This document shows positions 5,028 through 32,091 of a DNA stretch of 37,942 bases, in pieces. Made by a program: the position numbers and the translations under genes. Source of the stretch: a virus. Every line of letters starts with the position of its first letter. Position 1 is the first letter of the stretch. The DNA is taken from positions 1 through 37,942 of IMG/VR virus record IMGVR_UViG_3300007344_000079. One strand, 5' to 3'. Below the pieces are notes generated by a model. It ran no database searches and was not told where the DNA came from. It worked only from the letters and a program-made list of their open reading frames with translations.

Positions 5028-5256
5028 AGTTTTATTAGTTAGTTCTAACAGATATTATGATTGTTATTTCATTTCTAATAATAAAAGCTATAAGAAGCTA
5101 CTTGAAGAATTACAGATTAAATTAATAGGCTTAGATGTAGCAGAATGTGAACATCAAGACTTAACTGTACTTTTAGAAACTAAACACGCTAATAAATTAA
5201 TTGCTGATTTGTTTGAGTTGGCAAATGTAGTAAGATGTAAAATGATTAAGGTATGA
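4984..5256 (+). CDS. 90-aa hypothetical protein in the glycan cassette
   Basis: The likely start is GTG 4984, inside the 3' end of the preceding glycosyltransferase, and the stop overlaps the next ATG. The sequence is alpha/beta-like with a basic N-terminus and alternating strands and helices. No family is recognised. Tight overlap on both sides says it is translated with the two sugar-transfer genes. Initiation at an internal ATG would leave little protein, so GTG is preferred. Confidence 0.5.
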   Translation: MNKIRLIRKYKKEGRVLLVSSNRYYDCYFISNNKSYKKLLEELQIKLIGLDVAECEHQDLTVLLETKHANKLIADLFELANVVRCKMIKV

Positions 5257-5879
5257 AGAAAGTTTGTGTAGTACCAATATTCGGAGATTATGACAATCTA
5301 AAAGAGCCTACATTTATTAACGATGATTGGAAGTATATCTGTATATCTGATAAACACCATAAGTCTAATGTATGGAAAACTAAGATATTTAAAAACGATA
5401 CATTAACTAACAAACAAAAAAGTGGTTATGTATTAACTCAGCTTCATAGACTTTTAGATTATGATGTTGCTATTGTAGTCGGTGGACAAATACAAATCAA
5501 CACAGACTTAAATAAGTATATCTTTGATGAAGACTTTGTTAGCTTAGACCACCCAAGTAGAAACTGTATTTATAAAGAAGCTCAAGCGTGTATCTTATTA
5601 GACAAAGACAATCCAAAGGTTATAGCTAAACAGATGTATAAGTATTTAGAAGAAGGCTATCCAGTTAATAATGGAATGATACAAACTGGCATAACAATTA
5701 GAAAAGATAATAATTTAATTCGTACTTTTATGAATAGGTGGTGGTATGAGATACAGACGTATTCACAGAGAGACCAATTAAGCTTTAACTATGTGAAGCA
5801 TCAAATACCAATATCACATAGAGAGTTAAGTAGTAATTTATTAAATAAAGAATTTAAACTAAATAAACATAATGGGTGA
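5253..5879 (+). CDS. DUF616 / TOD1-MUCI70-like glycosyltransferase
   Basis: A 208-residue protein with the order of motifs I associate with DUF616: WKYICISDK, an HRLLDYDVAIVVGGQIQI strand, HPSRNCIYKEAQACI, EGYPVNNGMIQTGITIRK and a C-terminal FMNRWWYEIQTYSQRDQLSFNYV. Family members are GT-A-like glycosyltransferases. The strand that usually reads W-[IV]-D-G/S before N/Q-I reads VVGG here, so a normally acidic position appears to be Gly. The gene overlaps both neighbours by a few bases. Confidence 0.75.
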   Translation: MKKVCVVPIFGDYDNLKEPTFINDDWKYICISDKHHKSNVWKTKIFKNDTLTNKQKSGYVLTQLHRLLDYDVAIVVGGQIQINTDLNKYIFDEDFVSLDHPSRNCIYKEAQACILLDKDNPKVIAKQMYKYLEEGYPVNNGMIQTGITIRKDNNLIRTFMNRWWYEIQTYSQRDQLSFNYVKHQIPISHRELSSNLLNKEFKLNKHNG

Positions 5880-6027
5880 GATAAAAGAGTTATTAATTAA
5901 GAATGGTTGGATTGAAACGAATAACATAAAACCAACATTTAAAAAGGACGATGTATTTATAAGGGTTGAGGTGTGGGGCGTAACAGATAAAGGTGGTTGT
6001 ACAAAAGTAATTGATTTAACTAAATAA
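5872..6027 (+). CDS. 51-aa hypothetical protein
   Basis: ATG 5872 lies within the last codons of the DUF616 gene, and the stop is TAA 6025-6027. The product starts with a short helix (MGEIKELLIKNGW), then beta-prone segments DVFIRVEVWGV and TKVIDLTK. The pattern of a short helix ending in NGW then a beta sheet recurs in tiny Bacteroidota phage proteins, but no function is known. Too short for most ORF searches. Confidence 0.5.
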   Translation: MGEIKELLIKNGWIETNNIKPTFKKDDVFIRVEVWGVTDKGGCTKVIDLTK

Positions 6028-6038
6028 ACATAAGTAAT

Positions 6039-6212
6039 ATGAAAAAAGGAATAATATTTATAATGATTGCAGTAGCTCTTTTTTATGGGTTGACGTATTT
6101 AATGACTGAACTATCATTTGATTACTGGTGGCATTTTCCCACATATGTAGTTGGTGGTGTTTTAATGATATTATTTATTGTAATTGGGTGTTATAATATT
6201 TTATCAAAATGA
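6039..6212 (+). CDS. 57-aa two-span membrane protein
   Basis: ATG 6039 to TGA 6210-6212, the stop overlapping the next ATG as ATGA. Two hydrophobic helices (about residues 4-22 and 37-54) flank a short loop with FDYWWHFP. It is a predicted inner-membrane protein. Its place between two sugar-transfer genes could point to lipid-linked glycan handling, but no homology supports that. Confidence 0.5.
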   Translation: MKKGIIFIMIAVALFYGLTYLMTELSFDYWWHFPTYVVGGVLMILFIVIGCYNILSK

Positions 6213-6934
6213 AAATAACAATAGTGACAGCAATATGGCAACGTCCCGAAGTTTGGGATATGTTTAAACAAGGTGTAAGACGTTTAAGAAACCAATACAA
6301 CGATGTTGATGTTCAAGTCTGTGTTAGTGGTTCAGAGGGTGGAGCCTCTCAAAACAGATGTAAAGAAAAGTGGATTCACTATGTTGAAATAGAAAACAAT
6401 CCTTTAGGTAGAAAGATGAACGCTGCATTAACATTAGCAAAACAAACTAATGCAGATTATTATTTGTTAATGGGTAGTGATGATATTATCTGCAATAACT
6501 TATTTGATTTATATTTAGATTATATTGAGCAAGAGATTGACTACATTTATTTAATGGACGGGTACTTCTTTGACACAACAACTAAGCGTTCTTTATATTG
6601 GGGTGGTTATGCTGATAAATTAAACTTAGGCAGACCACTTGGAGCAGGTAGAATGTTAAGTAAAAGATTAGTAGAGAAAATGGATTATAAGTGTTGGTAT
6701 GATGTTAAACTAAGTGGATTATTAGACCAAGCAATGGATGAGAAGTTGGCAGAGATTGATTATACTAAGCAAGAAATATATTGCAGAGATAACGATTGTA
6801 TGTTGTTAGATATTAAGAGCAGTACTAATATGACAAAGTTTGCTAAATGGAATAATACAGAGTTTATACATACTGATATTATTAAAAATTATTTACCTAT
6901 ATTTGAATTTAATAAAATATATTATGTCAAATAA
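6209..6934 (+). CDS. glycosyltransferase family 2-like protein
   Basis: A 241-residue protein. It starts with the strand KITIVTAIWQRPE, has NNPLGRKMNAALTLAKQ typical of the helix before the DxD strand in GT-A enzymes, and then YYLLMGSDDI (about residues 84-93) with an SDD metal-binding motif. The WGGYADKL and LGAGRMLSKRLVEKM stretches fit the acceptor loop region. It probably transfers a sugar or decorates a surface structure. It is coupled to the upstream membrane gene by ATGA and overlaps the next gene. Confidence 0.75.
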   Translation: MKITIVTAIWQRPEVWDMFKQGVRRLRNQYNDVDVQVCVSGSEGGASQNRCKEKWIHYVEIENNPLGRKMNAALTLAKQTNADYYLLMGSDDIICNNLFDLYLDYIEQEIDYIYLMDGYFFDTTTKRSLYWGGYADKLNLGRPLGAGRMLSKRLVEKMDYKCWYDVKLSGLLDQAMDEKLAEIDYTKQEIYCRDNDCMLLDIKSSTNMTKFAKWNNTEFIHTDIIKNYLPIFEFNKIYYVK

Positions 6935-7109
6935 AACAAAAGTGTATTTAGTAAGTGAAAAAGAGCCTTCATTCAACACAATAATTGAGGCTAAGAAAGG
7001 AGTAAAAGGAAAATGGGAAAAGGTTAAAAGAACTTATCAAGGAGATAAACCCGAATACAATTTTCCTAAAGAAGATAACGGATTTACTCATTGGAGGTAT
7101 TTATTATGA
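6924..7109 (+). CDS. 61-aa hypothetical protein
   Basis: I place the start at ATG 6924, because an upstream in-frame start would overlap the glycosyltransferase by about 95 bases and add an unlikely hydrophobic head. The protein is basic and ends in GFTHWRYLL, faintly like the THW-x-PL ending of DUF551 proteins. Its stop overlaps the next start as ATGA. Function unknown. Confidence 0.5.
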   Translation: MSNKTKVYLVSEKEPSFNTIIEAKKGVKGKWEKVKRTYQGDKPEYNFPKEDNGFTHWRYLL

Positions 7110-7702
7110 ATAATAAAATAAGCCAATTTGCTTTTGTTTCTCCAAACGCTATTATAGGAGATAACAACATCATAGAGGAGGGTGTTGTGATAAAAGATAA
7201 TGTAGTAATAGGAGATAACAACCATATCTACCCATATACAACAATCGGATTAGCTGGAGAAGTTAGAGGAGATGACAATATAAAAGGCAAAGTAGTAATA
7301 GGTAATAACAATGTAATAAGAGAGTTTACAAGTATTCAATCCCCTCAAAGGTATGATTACACTCAAATAGGTAACAACTGCTTTATAATGGATAAAACGC
7401 ATATTGCACACGATTGTATTGTAGGAGATAATGTTACTATTGCACCAATGGTTACTTTAGGCGGTTGTGTTAATGTTGGCAACTATACTAACTTAGGCAT
7501 TAACTGTTCTATACATCAGAGGCTAACAATCGGAGAAAGTTGTATGATTGGAATGGGTGCTATAATAGTTAAAGATATACCTAACTATGAAAAGTGGGTT
7601 GGAGTACCTGCTAAGTGTATCGGTTGGAATTTACTTGGCTTAAGAAAGCGTTACCCAAATAAAACAGAAGAAGAAATTATAGAACTATGTGTGGTATCTT
7701 AG
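7106..7702 (+). CDS. LpxA-like left-handed beta-helix acyltransferase
   Basis: A 198-residue protein made almost wholly of hexapeptide repeats (I-G-D-N-N-V type) through about residue 165, so a trimeric left-handed beta-helix. The AHDC motif (A101-C104) carries the His used as catalytic base in LpxA, and the ending GWNLLGLRKRYPN resembles the LpxA junction to its C-terminal domain, which is mostly absent (LpxA is about 260 residues). It could O- or N-acylate a sugar nucleotide. ATG 7106 has a GGAGG at 7093-7097, a rare clear Shine-Dalgarno here; a TTG at 7091 is less likely. Confidence 0.8.
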   Translation: MNNKISQFAFVSPNAIIGDNNIIEEGVVIKDNVVIGDNNHIYPYTTIGLAGEVRGDDNIKGKVVIGNNNVIREFTSIQSPQRYDYTQIGNNCFIMDKTHIAHDCIVGDNVTIAPMVTLGGCVNVGNYTNLGINCSIHQRLTIGESCMIGMGAIIVKDIPNYEKWVGVPAKCIGWNLLGLRKRYPNKTEEEIIELCVVS

Positions 7703-8166
7703 CAGTCATAGGAGATTATAGGTATAAAGAAATACCAAAAGCATTATTAGAACGTGGTAGAGATGATAACGGTATCTATCAAGATAAACACGTTCAGCTA
7801 ATACAAACACGCTTAGAGATAACTAAGTGTAATATTGAGCTACCATATCAAACAGATAGATATGTATTGTTATTTAATGGAGAAATATACAACTATAAAC
7901 AGTTTGGAGATAATGAATATGAAGCAATATTAAATGTATATCAATACGGTGGAGAGTTAGACGGTCAATATGCTATTATAGTTTATGATAAACAAACTAA
8001 AGAAGTAACAACGCTTACAGATAGTTTTGGCATTCATTGCTTATACAAAGATGATTATAATGGTAGTAGGTTCTACTCATCTAATTTAAGAAGTTTACCA
8101 AAGATTGAATTTAAAGAAGCACAACATAGAGGATATGGAAACATTACCAAGCAAAGAGTTTTATAA
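7687..8166 (+). CDS. class II glutamine amidotransferase domain (AsnB N-terminal half)
   Basis: A 159-residue protein beginning MCGI, so Cys2 would be the N-terminal nucleophile of an Ntn glutaminase after Met removal. QTRLEI and LFNGEIYN match the glutamine-binding Arg and the N-G-E-I-Y-N motif of asparagine synthetases. TDSFGIHCLY corresponds to the usual RDRFGIKPLYY. It would release ammonia from glutamine for the synthetase encoded next. The downstream gene overlaps in the +1 frame, so the enzyme is split in two or a frameshift separates the halves. Compact compared with the roughly 200-residue domain of E. coli AsnB. Confidence 0.85.
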   Translation: MCGILAVIGDYRYKEIPKALLERGRDDNGIYQDKHVQLIQTRLEITKCNIELPYQTDRYVLLFNGEIYNYKQFGDNEYEAILNVYQYGGELDGQYAIIVYDKQTKEVTTLTDSFGIHCLYKDDYNGSRFYSSNLRSLPKIEFKEAQHRGYGNITKQRVL

Positions 8167-8884
8167 AGCATTTCTAAACGCTATAATTAAGAGAATGACT
8201 GATAATATAGTCGTTCCAGTTAGTGGTGGTTTAGACTCAACACTAATAGTTAAGGCTTTATATGATTTAGGATTAGAAAACGATGTTCAATATGTTACAA
8301 TGTATGGTAATGAGTATGCAGATAAGGTAGCAGAAACTTATAGTATCAAGTTAGATGTATTTACTCCAGACTATAAAGAAGAAGATTTAGTTAAAATGGT
8401 TGAGATATTAGAAGAACCTTTTTATTCTCCAAGCGTAAACTATTACTTATATGAAAAAATACATAGCATTGGTGGTCGAGTTTCTCTTAGTGGTTTGGGT
8501 GCTGATGAGCTTTTTGGTGGTTATGATTATTATAACACAAATAAATACCCTCGAGGTTTGTTTAAAGAAGTTGTGGCGATTTCTAACAAAGAAAAGAAAG
8601 CGCAAGATTTACACTTTCTAACTAATCATCATTTAAGAGAGAATGAGAAGTTAGGGTTATATTGGCAAGTAGAAGGACGTTATCCTTTCTTAGATAAAGT
8701 AGTAAGTAAGACTGATGACAATGGTAAGAGTTTAATAAAGGATATATTACTTAGAGATTTTAGTGATGACTTTGTTAATAGACAAAAAGAGGGTTTCAGA
8801 ATAGATGATAATAAAGATAGAGAACATCAAAAACAGCATTATATGAAACAATTAAATATTTGGAAGCAGATATTTATGAAATAA
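8135..8884 (+). CDS. asparagine-synthetase-like ATP-PPi domain (AsnB C-terminal half)
   Basis: From ATG 8135 the product is 250 residues. The PP-loop SGGLDS is at 30-35, SGLGADELFGGY (119-130) matches the AsnB motif normally S-G-E-G-A-D-E-L-F-G-G-Y, and VEGRYPFLD is at 179-187. The enzyme would adenylate a carboxylate and amidate it with ammonia from the partner glutaminase. AGAGGAT just before ATG 8135 supports separate initiation. The pair totals about 410 residues against about 554 in AsnB. In a glycan cassette the substrate may be a sugar acid rather than aspartate; that is inference. Confidence 0.85.
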   Translation: METLPSKEFYKAFLNAIIKRMTDNIVVPVSGGLDSTLIVKALYDLGLENDVQYVTMYGNEYADKVAETYSIKLDVFTPDYKEEDLVKMVEILEEPFYSPSVNYYLYEKIHSIGGRVSLSGLGADELFGGYDYYNTNKYPRGLFKEVVAISNKEKKAQDLHFLTNHHLRENEKLGLYWQVEGRYPFLDKVVSKTDDNGKSLIKDILLRDFSDDFVNRQKEGFRIDDNKDREHQKQHYMKQLNIWKQIFMK

Positions 8885-29184: not shown

Positions 29185-30480
29185 ATGAAGATTTATAATA
29201 AAAATAAAAATGTTTATGATGCTGCTAATGAAAGAATTGAATTTATATTTAAAAACTTTAAAAGAATATATGTTTCATTCTCTGGTGGTAAAGATTCTGG
29301 TATAATGTTAAACTTATGTTTAGACTATATGAGAAAAAACAACATAACTGAAAAGATAGGATTAATGGTTATGGATAATGAAGCTAACTATGAGTATTCT
29401 CTAAAGTTTATGCACGAAATAGTACAAGAAAACTTAGATTTATTAGATGTTTATTGGTGTTGTCTACCAATAACACTTCCTTGTACAGTTAGTAGTTATG
29501 AGATAGATTGGCAATGTTGGGGTGTTAATGATGAGAGTAGATGGATTAGACCAATGCCAAAACAAGATTATATAGTGAATATAGATAATCATAAATTTGA
29601 TTTCTTCCAAGAGAATATGGGATATGATGAGTTTTGGGATAAATTTGGTGATTGGTTTGCACAAGGCGAAAGTTGTGCTTGTTTGATTGGTATTCGTACT
29701 GATGAAAGTTTGAACAGGTATAGGGCTATTATGAATAAAAAGAAAGGAATGATTAATAACTTATGTTGGACAAAGAAAAATACTGAATATGTTTATAATT
29801 GTTACCCTATTTATGATTGGAGAACTGATGATGTTTGGGTTGCAAACGCAAAGTTTGACTGGAAATATAACGAGCTTTATGATATATTTTGGAAGGCTGG
29901 TTTAACAGTAGCACAAATGAGAGTTGCAAGTCCATTTATGAGTGAAGCTAAGAGTAGTTTGAATTTATACAAGGTTATCGATTCTCACGTGTGGGCAAGA
30001 CTTTGTGCAAGAGTTTCTGGAGCTAACTTTATGGCTACATATGGTAAACAGCTAAACTATCGTTCATTTTCTTTGCCAGAAGGACACACTTGGAAGAGTT
30101 TTACAAAGTTCTTGTTAGATACTTTACCTAATGAGTCTGGAGAAAATTTTAAGAAACGCTTTATTCAGTCAATTAAGTACTGGTGGAGAATAGGGCGTGG
30201 GTTGCCAGATAATGTTATTGAAGATATGAAGGAAAATAAAATAGAATTTATTGAGGGTGAAAAAACAAGGCACGGAAATAAGGATAAAACGTGTGTAAGA
30301 ATGTTGCCCCCAGACCACCTTGATATGTTGAAATGTCATAATTCGGATGTTACAAGCTGGAAAAGATTTGCTATAACTATATTAAAAAATGACCATACTT
30401 GTAAATATTTAGGGTTAGCACCAACACACGAACAAGCAAAAAGACAAAGAGAAATACAAACTAAATATAAAAACATATAA
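29185..30480 (+). CDS. ibrA: IbrA-like PAPS-reductase-family protein (DUF3440)
   Basis: A 431-residue protein with SGGKDS (residues 33-38), the PP-loop that binds ATP or PAPS. The characteristic IbrA/DUF3440 segments CACLIGIRTDESLNRYRAI, YPIYDWRTDDVWVAN, QMRVASPFMSEAKSSL and ARVSGANF follow. The last 45 residues hold a small domain (WKRFAITILKNDHTCKYLG) also found as a separate gene at 31822. In E. coli IbrA and IbrB raise expression of eib prophage genes by an unknown mechanism. The fold activates ATP or sulfate donors, so a nucleotide or sulfur chemistry role is possible. Cofactor-binding cysteines of assimilatory reductases are not evident. Confidence 0.85.
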   Translation: MKIYNKNKNVYDAANERIEFIFKNFKRIYVSFSGGKDSGIMLNLCLDYMRKNNITEKIGLMVMDNEANYEYSLKFMHEIVQENLDLLDVYWCCLPITLPCTVSSYEIDWQCWGVNDESRWIRPMPKQDYIVNIDNHKFDFFQENMGYDEFWDKFGDWFAQGESCACLIGIRTDESLNRYRAIMNKKKGMINNLCWTKKNTEYVYNCYPIYDWRTDDVWVANAKFDWKYNELYDIFWKAGLTVAQMRVASPFMSEAKSSLNLYKVIDSHVWARLCARVSGANFMATYGKQLNYRSFSLPEGHTWKSFTKFLLDTLPNESGENFKKRFIQSIKYWWRIGRGLPDNVIEDMKENKIEFIEGEKTRHGNKDKTCVRMLPPDHLDMLKCHNSDVTSWKRFAITILKNDHTCKYLGLAPTHEQAKRQREIQTKYKNI

Positions 30481-30491
30481 AAACAAATAAG

Positions 30492-30959
30492 ATGAAAGTA
30501 AGAACTATTAAAGAAATTGAAAACACAGAAAGAGATGTTAATTTTAAGGAGGGTAAAAGTTTGAGAATTGTATTAGCTAAAGATAATATGGGATTCTCAA
30601 TACATAAAACAATAATACCAAAAGGGCAAAAAGGTCATTGGCATTATAAACATCATTTAGAATCTTGTTACTGTATAAAAGGTAGTGGAATTTTAACCAA
30701 CTTAAACACAAAAGAAGTTTTTAATATAAATGTTGACACCGTATATTCTTTAGATGATAATGATAATCACACATTTGAAGCTCTTGAAGATGTTGTTTTG
30801 ATAAGTGTTTTTAATCCACCAGTTACTGGAAATGAAATACACCAAAAAGATGGTAGTTATTCTATGAATAAAGCTAAAGATATTGTTTACTCAATAAGTG
30901 AATGCACAAATGATTATGATGCAATAGAAAAAGTTAATGAATTATTAATGAAAAAATAA
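30492..30959 (+). CDS. ectC: ectoine-synthase-like cupin (EctC family)
   Basis: A 155-residue protein aligning with EctC from end to end. Residues recalled from the Paenibacillus lautus enzyme occur at identical numbering: iron ligands E57, Y85 and H93, and substrate-site R25, T40, Y52, H55, G64, L87, F107, E115 and H117. Only the Trp expected at 21 and the Asn at 38 differ (Gly, His). VFNPPVTGNEIHQKDGSY is the family signature. EctC cyclises N-gamma-acetyl-diaminobutyrate to ectoine. No ectA or ectB is visible, so the substrate must come from the host or be something else. It sits between ibrA-like and ibrB-like genes. Confidence 0.85.
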   Translation: MKVRTIKEIENTERDVNFKEGKSLRIVLAKDNMGFSIHKTIIPKGQKGHWHYKHHLESCYCIKGSGILTNLNTKEVFNINVDTVYSLDDNDNHTFEALEDVVLISVFNPPVTGNEIHQKDGSYSMNKAKDIVYSISECTNDYDAIEKVNELLMKK

Positions 30960-30965
30960 AAAGAA

Positions 30966-31487
30966 ATGGAAAAGTTTATGTCACCAGTCTATAACGTACT
31001 TAGAGTTCCAATAGACAAAATACAAGCAAATGATTATAACCCTAATAGTGTTGCTCCACCAGAAATGGAACTACTTGAAACATCAATTTGGGAAGATGGA
31101 TATACTATGCCAGTTGTATGCTTTAGAGATGAAGAAAATGATAAATACATTGTTGTTGATGGATTCCACAGATATACAGTATTAAAAAACTCAAAAAGAA
31201 TATTTGATAGAGAAGAAGGGATGCTTCCAATATCTGTAATTGATAAGGAGCTTGGCGATAGAATGGCTTCTACTATTCGACATAATAGAGCAAGAGGTTC
31301 TCACAATTTAGAACTTATGAGTACTATAGTTAGTGAATTGGTTGAGATGGGGAAGGGTGATGCTTGGATATGTAAGCACGTTGGTATGTCTCCAGATGAA
31401 CTACTAAGAATGAAGCAAATAACTGGTTTAGCCTCATTATTTCAAAATAAAGATTTCTCAGATAGCTGGGATGCTGAAATGGTATGA
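30966..31487 (+). CDS. ibrB: IbrB-like ParB-domain protein
   Basis: A 173-residue protein. The N-terminus PVYNVLRVPIDKIQANDYNP, SIWEDGYTMPVV, VVDGFHRY (63-70) and RHNRARGSHN (105-114) are typical of IbrB and other ParB/Srx-like nuclease-fold proteins. The C-terminal part (WICKHVGMSPDELLRM) is an HTH. ParB-fold proteins bind CTP or DNA, and some act as nucleases. IbrB normally partners IbrA. It overlaps the next gene by 4 bases. Confidence 0.85.
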   Translation: MEKFMSPVYNVLRVPIDKIQANDYNPNSVAPPEMELLETSIWEDGYTMPVVCFRDEENDKYIVVDGFHRYTVLKNSKRIFDREEGMLPISVIDKELGDRMASTIRHNRARGSHNLELMSTIVSELVEMGKGDAWICKHVGMSPDELLRMKQITGLASLFQNKDFSDSWDAEMV

Positions 31488-31921
31488 TTCAAGTTTATCA
31501 TCCATATTGGAAGTGGGAATGCTATAAAAATGGTATGTGGTTAAAATCAAGTGACTATGATAATCAACTAAAAGAGGCTATCAAATTTACTGGAAACCAC
31601 ATACTTTATGGTAACGCAATGAATGAAGTTATTTATTCTTGGAGATACACAATAGAACACCACTTATCAAATAAATCAATTAATAGAAGAGCTTTTATTG
31701 GTCATTGTGCTGTATTTTATAAAAAATTAATACCTGAATATATTGTTAGGGATGCTTGGAAACATCTAAGCGACAAGCAAAGAACATTAGCAGACAATGA
31801 AGCAGAAAAAGCTATTAAAGAATGGGAATTATGGTACACAAAAAAGTTACAGATTATATCAAAACTTGGGAGTCAAGAGGATATAAAGAAGGGATACCAG
31901 ATGAAGCTCCTTTTGAGTTAA
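31484..31921 (+). CDS. 145-aa conserved phage protein
   Basis: Trp- and Tyr-rich at the start (HPYWKWECYKNGMW), then INRRAFIGHCAVFYKKLIPE and IVRDAWKHLSDKQRTLADN. I recognise this pattern from phage proteins of unknown function in marine and enterobacterial genomes, often near DNA metabolism genes. The last 30 residues overlap the next gene in another frame. ATGA coupling puts it in the IbrAB-like unit. Confidence 0.65.
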   Translation: MIQVYHPYWKWECYKNGMWLKSSDYDNQLKEAIKFTGNHILYGNAMNEVIYSWRYTIEHHLSNKSINRRAFIGHCAVFYKKLIPEYIVRDAWKHLSDKQRTLADNEAEKAIKEWELWYTKKLQIISKLGSQEDIKKGYQMKLLLS

Positions 31922-32091
31922 AAGATAAAGTTCCTTCATATAAAAATATATGTATAGCTTTATTAAAAAATGATATGAATTTAACTTCATTAGGATATAA
32001 GCCAAAATATACTAAGTATTATTCTGTTTTAAAAAGAATAGAAATAGATGCCAGACCAACAAAGTATAAACAACTAAAGTTAAAAATATGA
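31822..32091 (+). CDS. stand-alone DUF3440 C-terminal-domain protein
   Basis: 89 residues from ATG 31822, or 86 from the in-frame ATG 31831. It overlaps the preceding gene by about 100 bases. The core YKNICIALLKNDMNLTSLGY parallels the C-terminal WKRFAITILKNDHTCKYLGL of the IbrA-like protein, and TWESRGYKEGIPDEAP precedes it as in the longer protein family. It may be a detached accessory domain for IbrA or a duplicate. The stop overlaps the next ATG. Confidence 0.65.
   Translation: MGIMVHKKVTDYIKTWESRGYKEGIPDEAPFELKDKVPSYKNICIALLKNDMNLTSLGYKPKYTKYYSVLKRIEIDARPTKYKQLKLKI

Follow-up and report, generated by a model that had tools for sequence, protein, structure and literature searches.

What is an ectoine synthase (EctC) doing in a phage that shows neither ectA nor ectB? 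The window analysed here is the whole of record IMGVR_UViG_3300007344_000079, 37,942 bases that are possibly a fragment, and neither of these genes was found anywhere along it. Terminase, portal and tape-measure genes identify the record as a phage. As the terminase has its closest relatives in Croceibacter, Chryseobacterium and Cellulophaga phages (39-44% identity), a host among the Flavobacteriia is plausible, albeit unproven. A first-pass annotation, made from the sequence alone, had offered three roles for the orphan enzyme: completing ectoine from a host precursor, helping a marine host against osmotic stress, or closing a ring on a new substrate connected with a neighbouring PP-loop protein. 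We conclude that the protein is very probably an enzyme belonging to a conserved phage gene module, and not an ectoine maker.

The gene is real and it is a homologue of EctC, as had been proposed. On the forward strand, it runs from ATG to stop at exactly 30492-30959 and codes for 155 residues that score above the curated cut-offs of Pfam Ectoine_synth (PF06339; 154 bits, E 2.9e-45, cut-off 27) and of the NCBIfam ectoine synthase family (NF009806; 158 bits, cut-off 128). Its AlphaFold model (pLDDT 89) has a cupin fold with 5bxx_B as the top PDB match (Z 20.6, 0.8 A over 113 residues), other cupins following far below at Z ~14. The overlay on EctC that the first-pass annotation had put forward as a check is therefore passed at the level of the fold. 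Alignment with the S. alaskensis EctC 5bxx is free of gaps over residues 2-125 (E 5e-26) and, like the alignment with 5onm, leaves the iron ligands in register. All three of them (E57, Y85 and H93) are there, and so are the substrate residues S23, R25, T40, Y52 and F107, in agreement with the early reading of the site. The source of the numbering has to be amended, Y85 and H93 being S. alaskensis positions that correspond to Y84 and H92 in P. lautus (PMC6344544, PMC5924519). It follows from the ungapped alignment and from the overlay of the model that the ligands should cluster as they do in the enzyme.

That ectA and ectB are missing holds for the record; what had been understated is a conserved context of five genes, all on the forward strand. 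The first (29185-30480) encodes an IbrA-like protein of 431 residues, a PP-loop ATP pyrophosphatase with a PAPS reductase domain and a DUF3440 region (Pfam PAPS_reduct E 2.5e-10, DUF3440 E 2e-56; PHROG 2302 E 2e-110). Its PP-loop motif SGGKDS is intact, cysteines C92, C93, C100, C274 and C406 are invariant, and a search of the PDB for solved relatives returned weak PP-loop matches only. The EctC-like gene starts 11 nt past the IbrA stop, and 6 nt past its own stop begins the gene of an IbrB-like protein of 173 residues (30966-31487; PHROG 2159, E 8e-79), where a ParB/sulfiredoxin-type domain with a DGFHR motif is followed, judging from its sequence, by an apparent ParB-like helix-turn-helix region. 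The two make an IbrA/IbrB-type pair, in which a PP-loop protein with DUF3440 has a ParB-like neighbour, comparable to that encoded by the adjacent same-strand genes of YbdN and YbdM in E. coli K-12 (PHROG 2302/2159; 31% identity for IbrA, 47% for IbrB). Next comes protein X (31484-31921), all-helical and 145 residues long, whose start overlaps the IbrB stop (ATGA). It has no match in Pfam or PHROG, and its AlphaFold model, at pLDDT 95, found no PDB counterpart (Foldseek best E 1.5; best VIA Z 3.9). The last gene (31822-32091), its start overlapping the end of X, encodes protein Y, whose 89 residues are similar to the C-terminal end of DUF3440/IbrA (E 2e-5 for positions 138-175 of Pfam DUF3440, slightly under the cut-off). 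Rad52/Erf-like, exonuclease-like and SSB-like genes lie near the module.

Is this arrangement a peculiarity of one genome? EctC queries and, in a separate search, an IbrB query were used to gather viral loci, which were then screened for EctC, IbrA and IbrB by profile. Once duplicates are removed there are 124 viral EctC loci, the window included, and IbrA and IbrB stand beside EctC on the same strand in 120 of them. Gene order in these is IbrA-EctC-IbrB in 112 cases, IbrB-IbrA-EctC in 5 and EctC-IbrB-IbrA in 3, while EctC and IbrB are fused in one reading frame in 48. Among the four loci that remain, three are truncated where the contig stops (L059, L099, L140) and L141 is a separate case, with no IbrA within 3.6 kb upstream and a contig that ends shortly past IbrB. 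Neighbour clustering revealed X, and profiles then counted it in 118 of the 124 loci, with the short Y in 111. Chance adjacency is rejected by the 120 loci, the shifting gene order and the fusions, and a linkage that is kept while the order varies points to function rather than to a frozen block. The five-gene set IbrA, EctC-like, IbrB, X and Y is conserved, and its EctC is not an isolated metabolic gene. As for the idea of a cyclising substrate tied to the PP-loop neighbour, the association behind it holds and is stronger than supposed, a ParB-like gene and two further genes being linked as well. The IbrA-EctC-IbrB set is found in the Pseudoalteromonas phage XCL1123 and in the mycobacteriophages Nebkiss and Gaia; in the record of the latter, the protein is named 'ectoine synthase/ParB multidomain protein'. 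It is also present on a 59.7-kb Planctomycetota MAG contig that bears a phage portal gene, and overall it is spread over phages of Flavobacteriia type, of Pseudoalteromonas and of Mycobacterium. The one candidate for a phage EctC devoid of the module, MT835761 (L018, 'UNVERIFIED: Bacteriophage sp.'), was rejected: labelled as a phage, it is bacterial chromosome-like, with a canonical EctC that has Trp21 and follows an EctB-like gene.

Compared with the enzyme of ectoine synthesis (PF06339, NF009806; 5bxx, 5onm), the module proteins share the cupin fold, the iron ligands (E57 and Y85 in 125/125, H93 in 124/125), the lid residues Glu and His at the C-terminus and most substrate contacts, but they differ in the pocket. 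Trp21, found in 95 of 96 cellular EctCs, is absent from all 125 module members; the window protein has Gly there, so that this departure, noticed at the outset, is both real and general. Cys59 replaces Val59 in every module member, against 1/96 of the cellular proteins, and the pair of Trp21 with Val59, kept in 95/96 of the latter, has lost both residues in 125/125 of the former. Further features are Phe95 in place of Leu (124/125) and Trp50 (110/125). The change of Asn38 to His, which had also been taken for a departure, is none: His is the usual residue (80 of the 82 cellular EctCs compared), and we reject it as a functional change. In P. lautus EctC, Trp21 shifts upon substrate binding, the W21A mutant has 9.7% of its activity left, and the residue is fully conserved among 437 cluster-encoded EctCs (PMC6344544). 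Residues 57 and 59 share one strand, two positions apart, so that the side chain of Cys59 would, by strand alternation, probably face the iron.

The 125 module EctCs also form a clade of their own. In trees of 207 and 221 proteins, quick ones built on 130 columns and without bootstrap, they make up one side of a single branch (SH-aLRT 100, and 99 in the wider sample). Bacteria, too, have solitary EctC-like proteins encoded without ectAB (PMC5924519), but these are different, 29 of the 30 sampled keeping Trp21 and Val59, and none of those scanned has IbrA/IbrB nearby. In a further set of EctC genes, mostly from Marinobacter and relatives (L178, L179, L181, L182, L186-L195 and others), no ectB lies within about 5 kb and IbrA/IbrB are missing; most of the proteins fall in one tree group. 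Only one cellular EctC combines Cys59 with the lack of Trp21: a divergent orphan from a Kiloniellaceae MAG (L204, 1680-2078), whose short contig (3.8 kb) shows no IbrA/IbrB.

Could the phage nevertheless complete ectoine from the N-gamma-acetyl-diaminobutyrate of its host, and thereby provide osmotic protection to a marine bacterium? Membership of the EctC family, the intact iron site and a marine Flavobacteriia host, plausible from the terminase relatives, would fit, and a virome paper published in 2026 interprets viral ectoine synthase in this manner, as an aid under variable salinity (PMC13079714). Furthermore, an EctC mutant that has lost Trp21 keeps some activity, so that ectoine formation is conceivable. 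To be weighed against this are the lack of ectA and ectB in the record, a separate clade in which Trp21 is gone in 125 proteins out of 125, and a constant linkage with IbrA/IbrB that goes as far as EctC-IbrB fusions. In addition, the module occurs in phages of soil mycobacteria, and an EctC-like gene is already present in most genomes of that family: 252 of 301 Mycobacteriaceae genomes match the Gaia fusion protein and, among the matches listed, it is mostly the EctC part that is matched, at about 26-38% identity, with no intact EctC-ParB fusion among them. Ectoine completion and osmoprotection, the first two roles once offered, find no support in these comparisons, and we consider them very improbable. 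The module data suggest that the salinity reading of the virome paper (PMC13079714) be taken with caution.

If not ectoine, what does the cupin contribute? A scan seeded with X, an entry independent of EctC, covered 80 loci and a Microcystis phage locus. Complete five-gene sets were found in 41 cases, and EctC without a detected Y in one. In another 34 loci there is IbrB, X and a shorter, lower-scoring IbrA match, without EctC or Y and mostly in the order IbrB-X-IbrA; L281 and L292 exemplify this second arrangement, as does Microcystis phage Mwe-JY13 (L266), where X is annotated 'ParB/sulfiredoxin'. X is alone on a short piece once, and in four loci IbrA, IbrB, X and Y come without EctC. Two of these four have no insert, while the other two, a single contig each, have a different gene: at 3256-4002 of L102 (IMGVR_UViG_3300049489_000692) a 1-Cys peroxiredoxin (AhpC-TSA E 2.6e-24) replaces EctC, X and Y being retained, and at 5890-6435 of L269 a methyltransferase-like ORF, called by eye from the sequence, lies between IbrA and IbrB. 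A search for a second peroxiredoxin module found none. The place between the two genes may thus hold EctC, a peroxiredoxin or a methyltransferase-like ORF, and it has the look of a tailoring-enzyme slot that is filled most often by EctC. Moreover, many IbrA/IbrB pairs, in Streptococcus, Lactobacillus and Fusobacterium phages and as ybdNM in E. coli, have neither EctC nor X nor Y, and EctC is therefore unneeded for the basic role of the pair. In one of these, Fusobacterium phage phiFN37 (L254), about 3 kb beyond the pair, a second ParB-like gene adjoins the gene of a queuine tRNA-ribosyltransferase.

The module might also be regulatory. Annotations of IbrA and IbrB, like the name they bear, make them co-activators of prophage gene expression, IbrB is ParB-like, and the E. 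coli pair ybdNM is under CitR control; in a module that activates genes, the EctC-like cupin would act as a ligand sensor devoid of catalysis. However, its iron ligands and catalytic-lid residues are conserved as in enzymes and the SGGKDS motif of IbrA is intact, which argues for catalysis; we regard the regulatory reading as quite improbable.

The main rival is a pathway that makes a soluble metabolite, be it a signal, a cofactor or a counter-defence molecule. IbrB would be a kinase of free amino acids similar to SbnI or SerK, IbrA would activate the substrate or add sulfur or nitrogen to it, and the cupin would cyclise the resulting amino-acid derivative. The PDB matches of IbrB, all weak, are to ParB, Noc and the serine kinase SbnI, the last one local, over residues about 28-74 around the DG-HRY motif (E 0.014). 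The substrate of EctC is itself a diaminobutyrate derivative, and a solitary EctC of Rhizobium gallicum (plasmid pRgalIE4872a; L358, 1-3399) is encoded in an operon of comparable content. This EctC has Trp21, and ahead of its gene lie those of an alanine racemase, an adenylating (adenylate-forming) enzyme and a carrier protein, a setting reminiscent of a small non-ribosomal pathway. Yet the ParB and Noc matches of IbrB and its ParB-like C-terminal region suggest DNA binding, and neighbour clustering displayed no recurrent transporter or extra pathway enzymes next to the module. A soluble product is, in our view, rather unlikely.

PP-loop enzymes use ATP to activate their substrates. In the scheme that we prefer IbrA would do this, and the EctC-like iron cupin would tailor the substrate or the product of IbrA rather than N-gamma-acetyl-diaminobutyrate, through ring closure by water loss or through thiol chemistry involving Cys59. 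IbrB, with its ParB/sulfiredoxin fold and a C-terminal region akin to DNA-binding ones, would hold EctC and confer NTP-dependent action or targeting. The simplest reading of the EctC-IbrB fusions is indeed that IbrB holds a cupin acting on a substrate activated by IbrA and, as ParB, Noc and SbnI are its nearest solved relatives, weak as the matches are, IbrB may bind or use an NTP and bind DNA. The likeliest end product would be a modified phage nucleic acid or nucleotide. To this statement as a whole, a cupin that is the third component of an IbrA/IbrB module and tailors what IbrA activates, with such a product as its likeliest outcome, we give even chances.

That the target is a nucleic acid is, taken by itself, possible rather than probable, and comes from the neighbours and from analogies. 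ParB-superfamily or ParB-like proteins are partners of DNA-modifying enzymes in the Dnd and Dpd systems (PMC12839542), and a PAPS-reductase-like gene in a M. abscessus prophage has been compared with DndC (PMC8092301); these parallels favour a nucleic-acid target by analogy only. With DndC/DndB phosphorothioation of DNA, the module shares the association of a ParB-superfamily protein and a PP-loop protein resembling PAPS reductase. It differs in that its IbrA, with 23.2 bits against a DndC cut-off of 290.4, falls outside the DndC family, and in the additional presence of an iron cupin and of X and Y. A more specific proposal has IbrA attaching an amino-acid-like group to a nucleobase or nucleotide, the cupin performing ring closure or thiol chemistry on that group, and IbrB serving as an NTP-dependent carrier or DNA-targeting subunit. 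We see it as doubtful; if true, it would amount to a new kind of nucleic-acid hypermodification, produced by a five-gene phage pathway.

No description of EctC joined with IbrA/IbrB, or with X and Y, was found in the open-access literature searched. The Gaia protein, IbrA/IbrB and orphan EctC had been annotated before; a role of EctC in an IbrA/IbrB module appears to be new. One group of the EctCs that lack ectAB, proteins of interest to the ectoine field, gains fixed partners and a signature, namely Cys59 and no Trp21, and the label 'viral ectoine synthase' should be checked before osmoprotection is derived from it. The poorly understood IbrA/IbrB pair, for its part, gains three components, and its function can be tested with a laboratory phage, Gaia grown on M. 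smegmatis mc2 155. Elsewhere in the window, within the structural region (5253-8884), there is a run of glycosyltransferase-like and hexapeptide-transferase genes with a split glutamine amidotransferase/asparagine-synthase-like gene.
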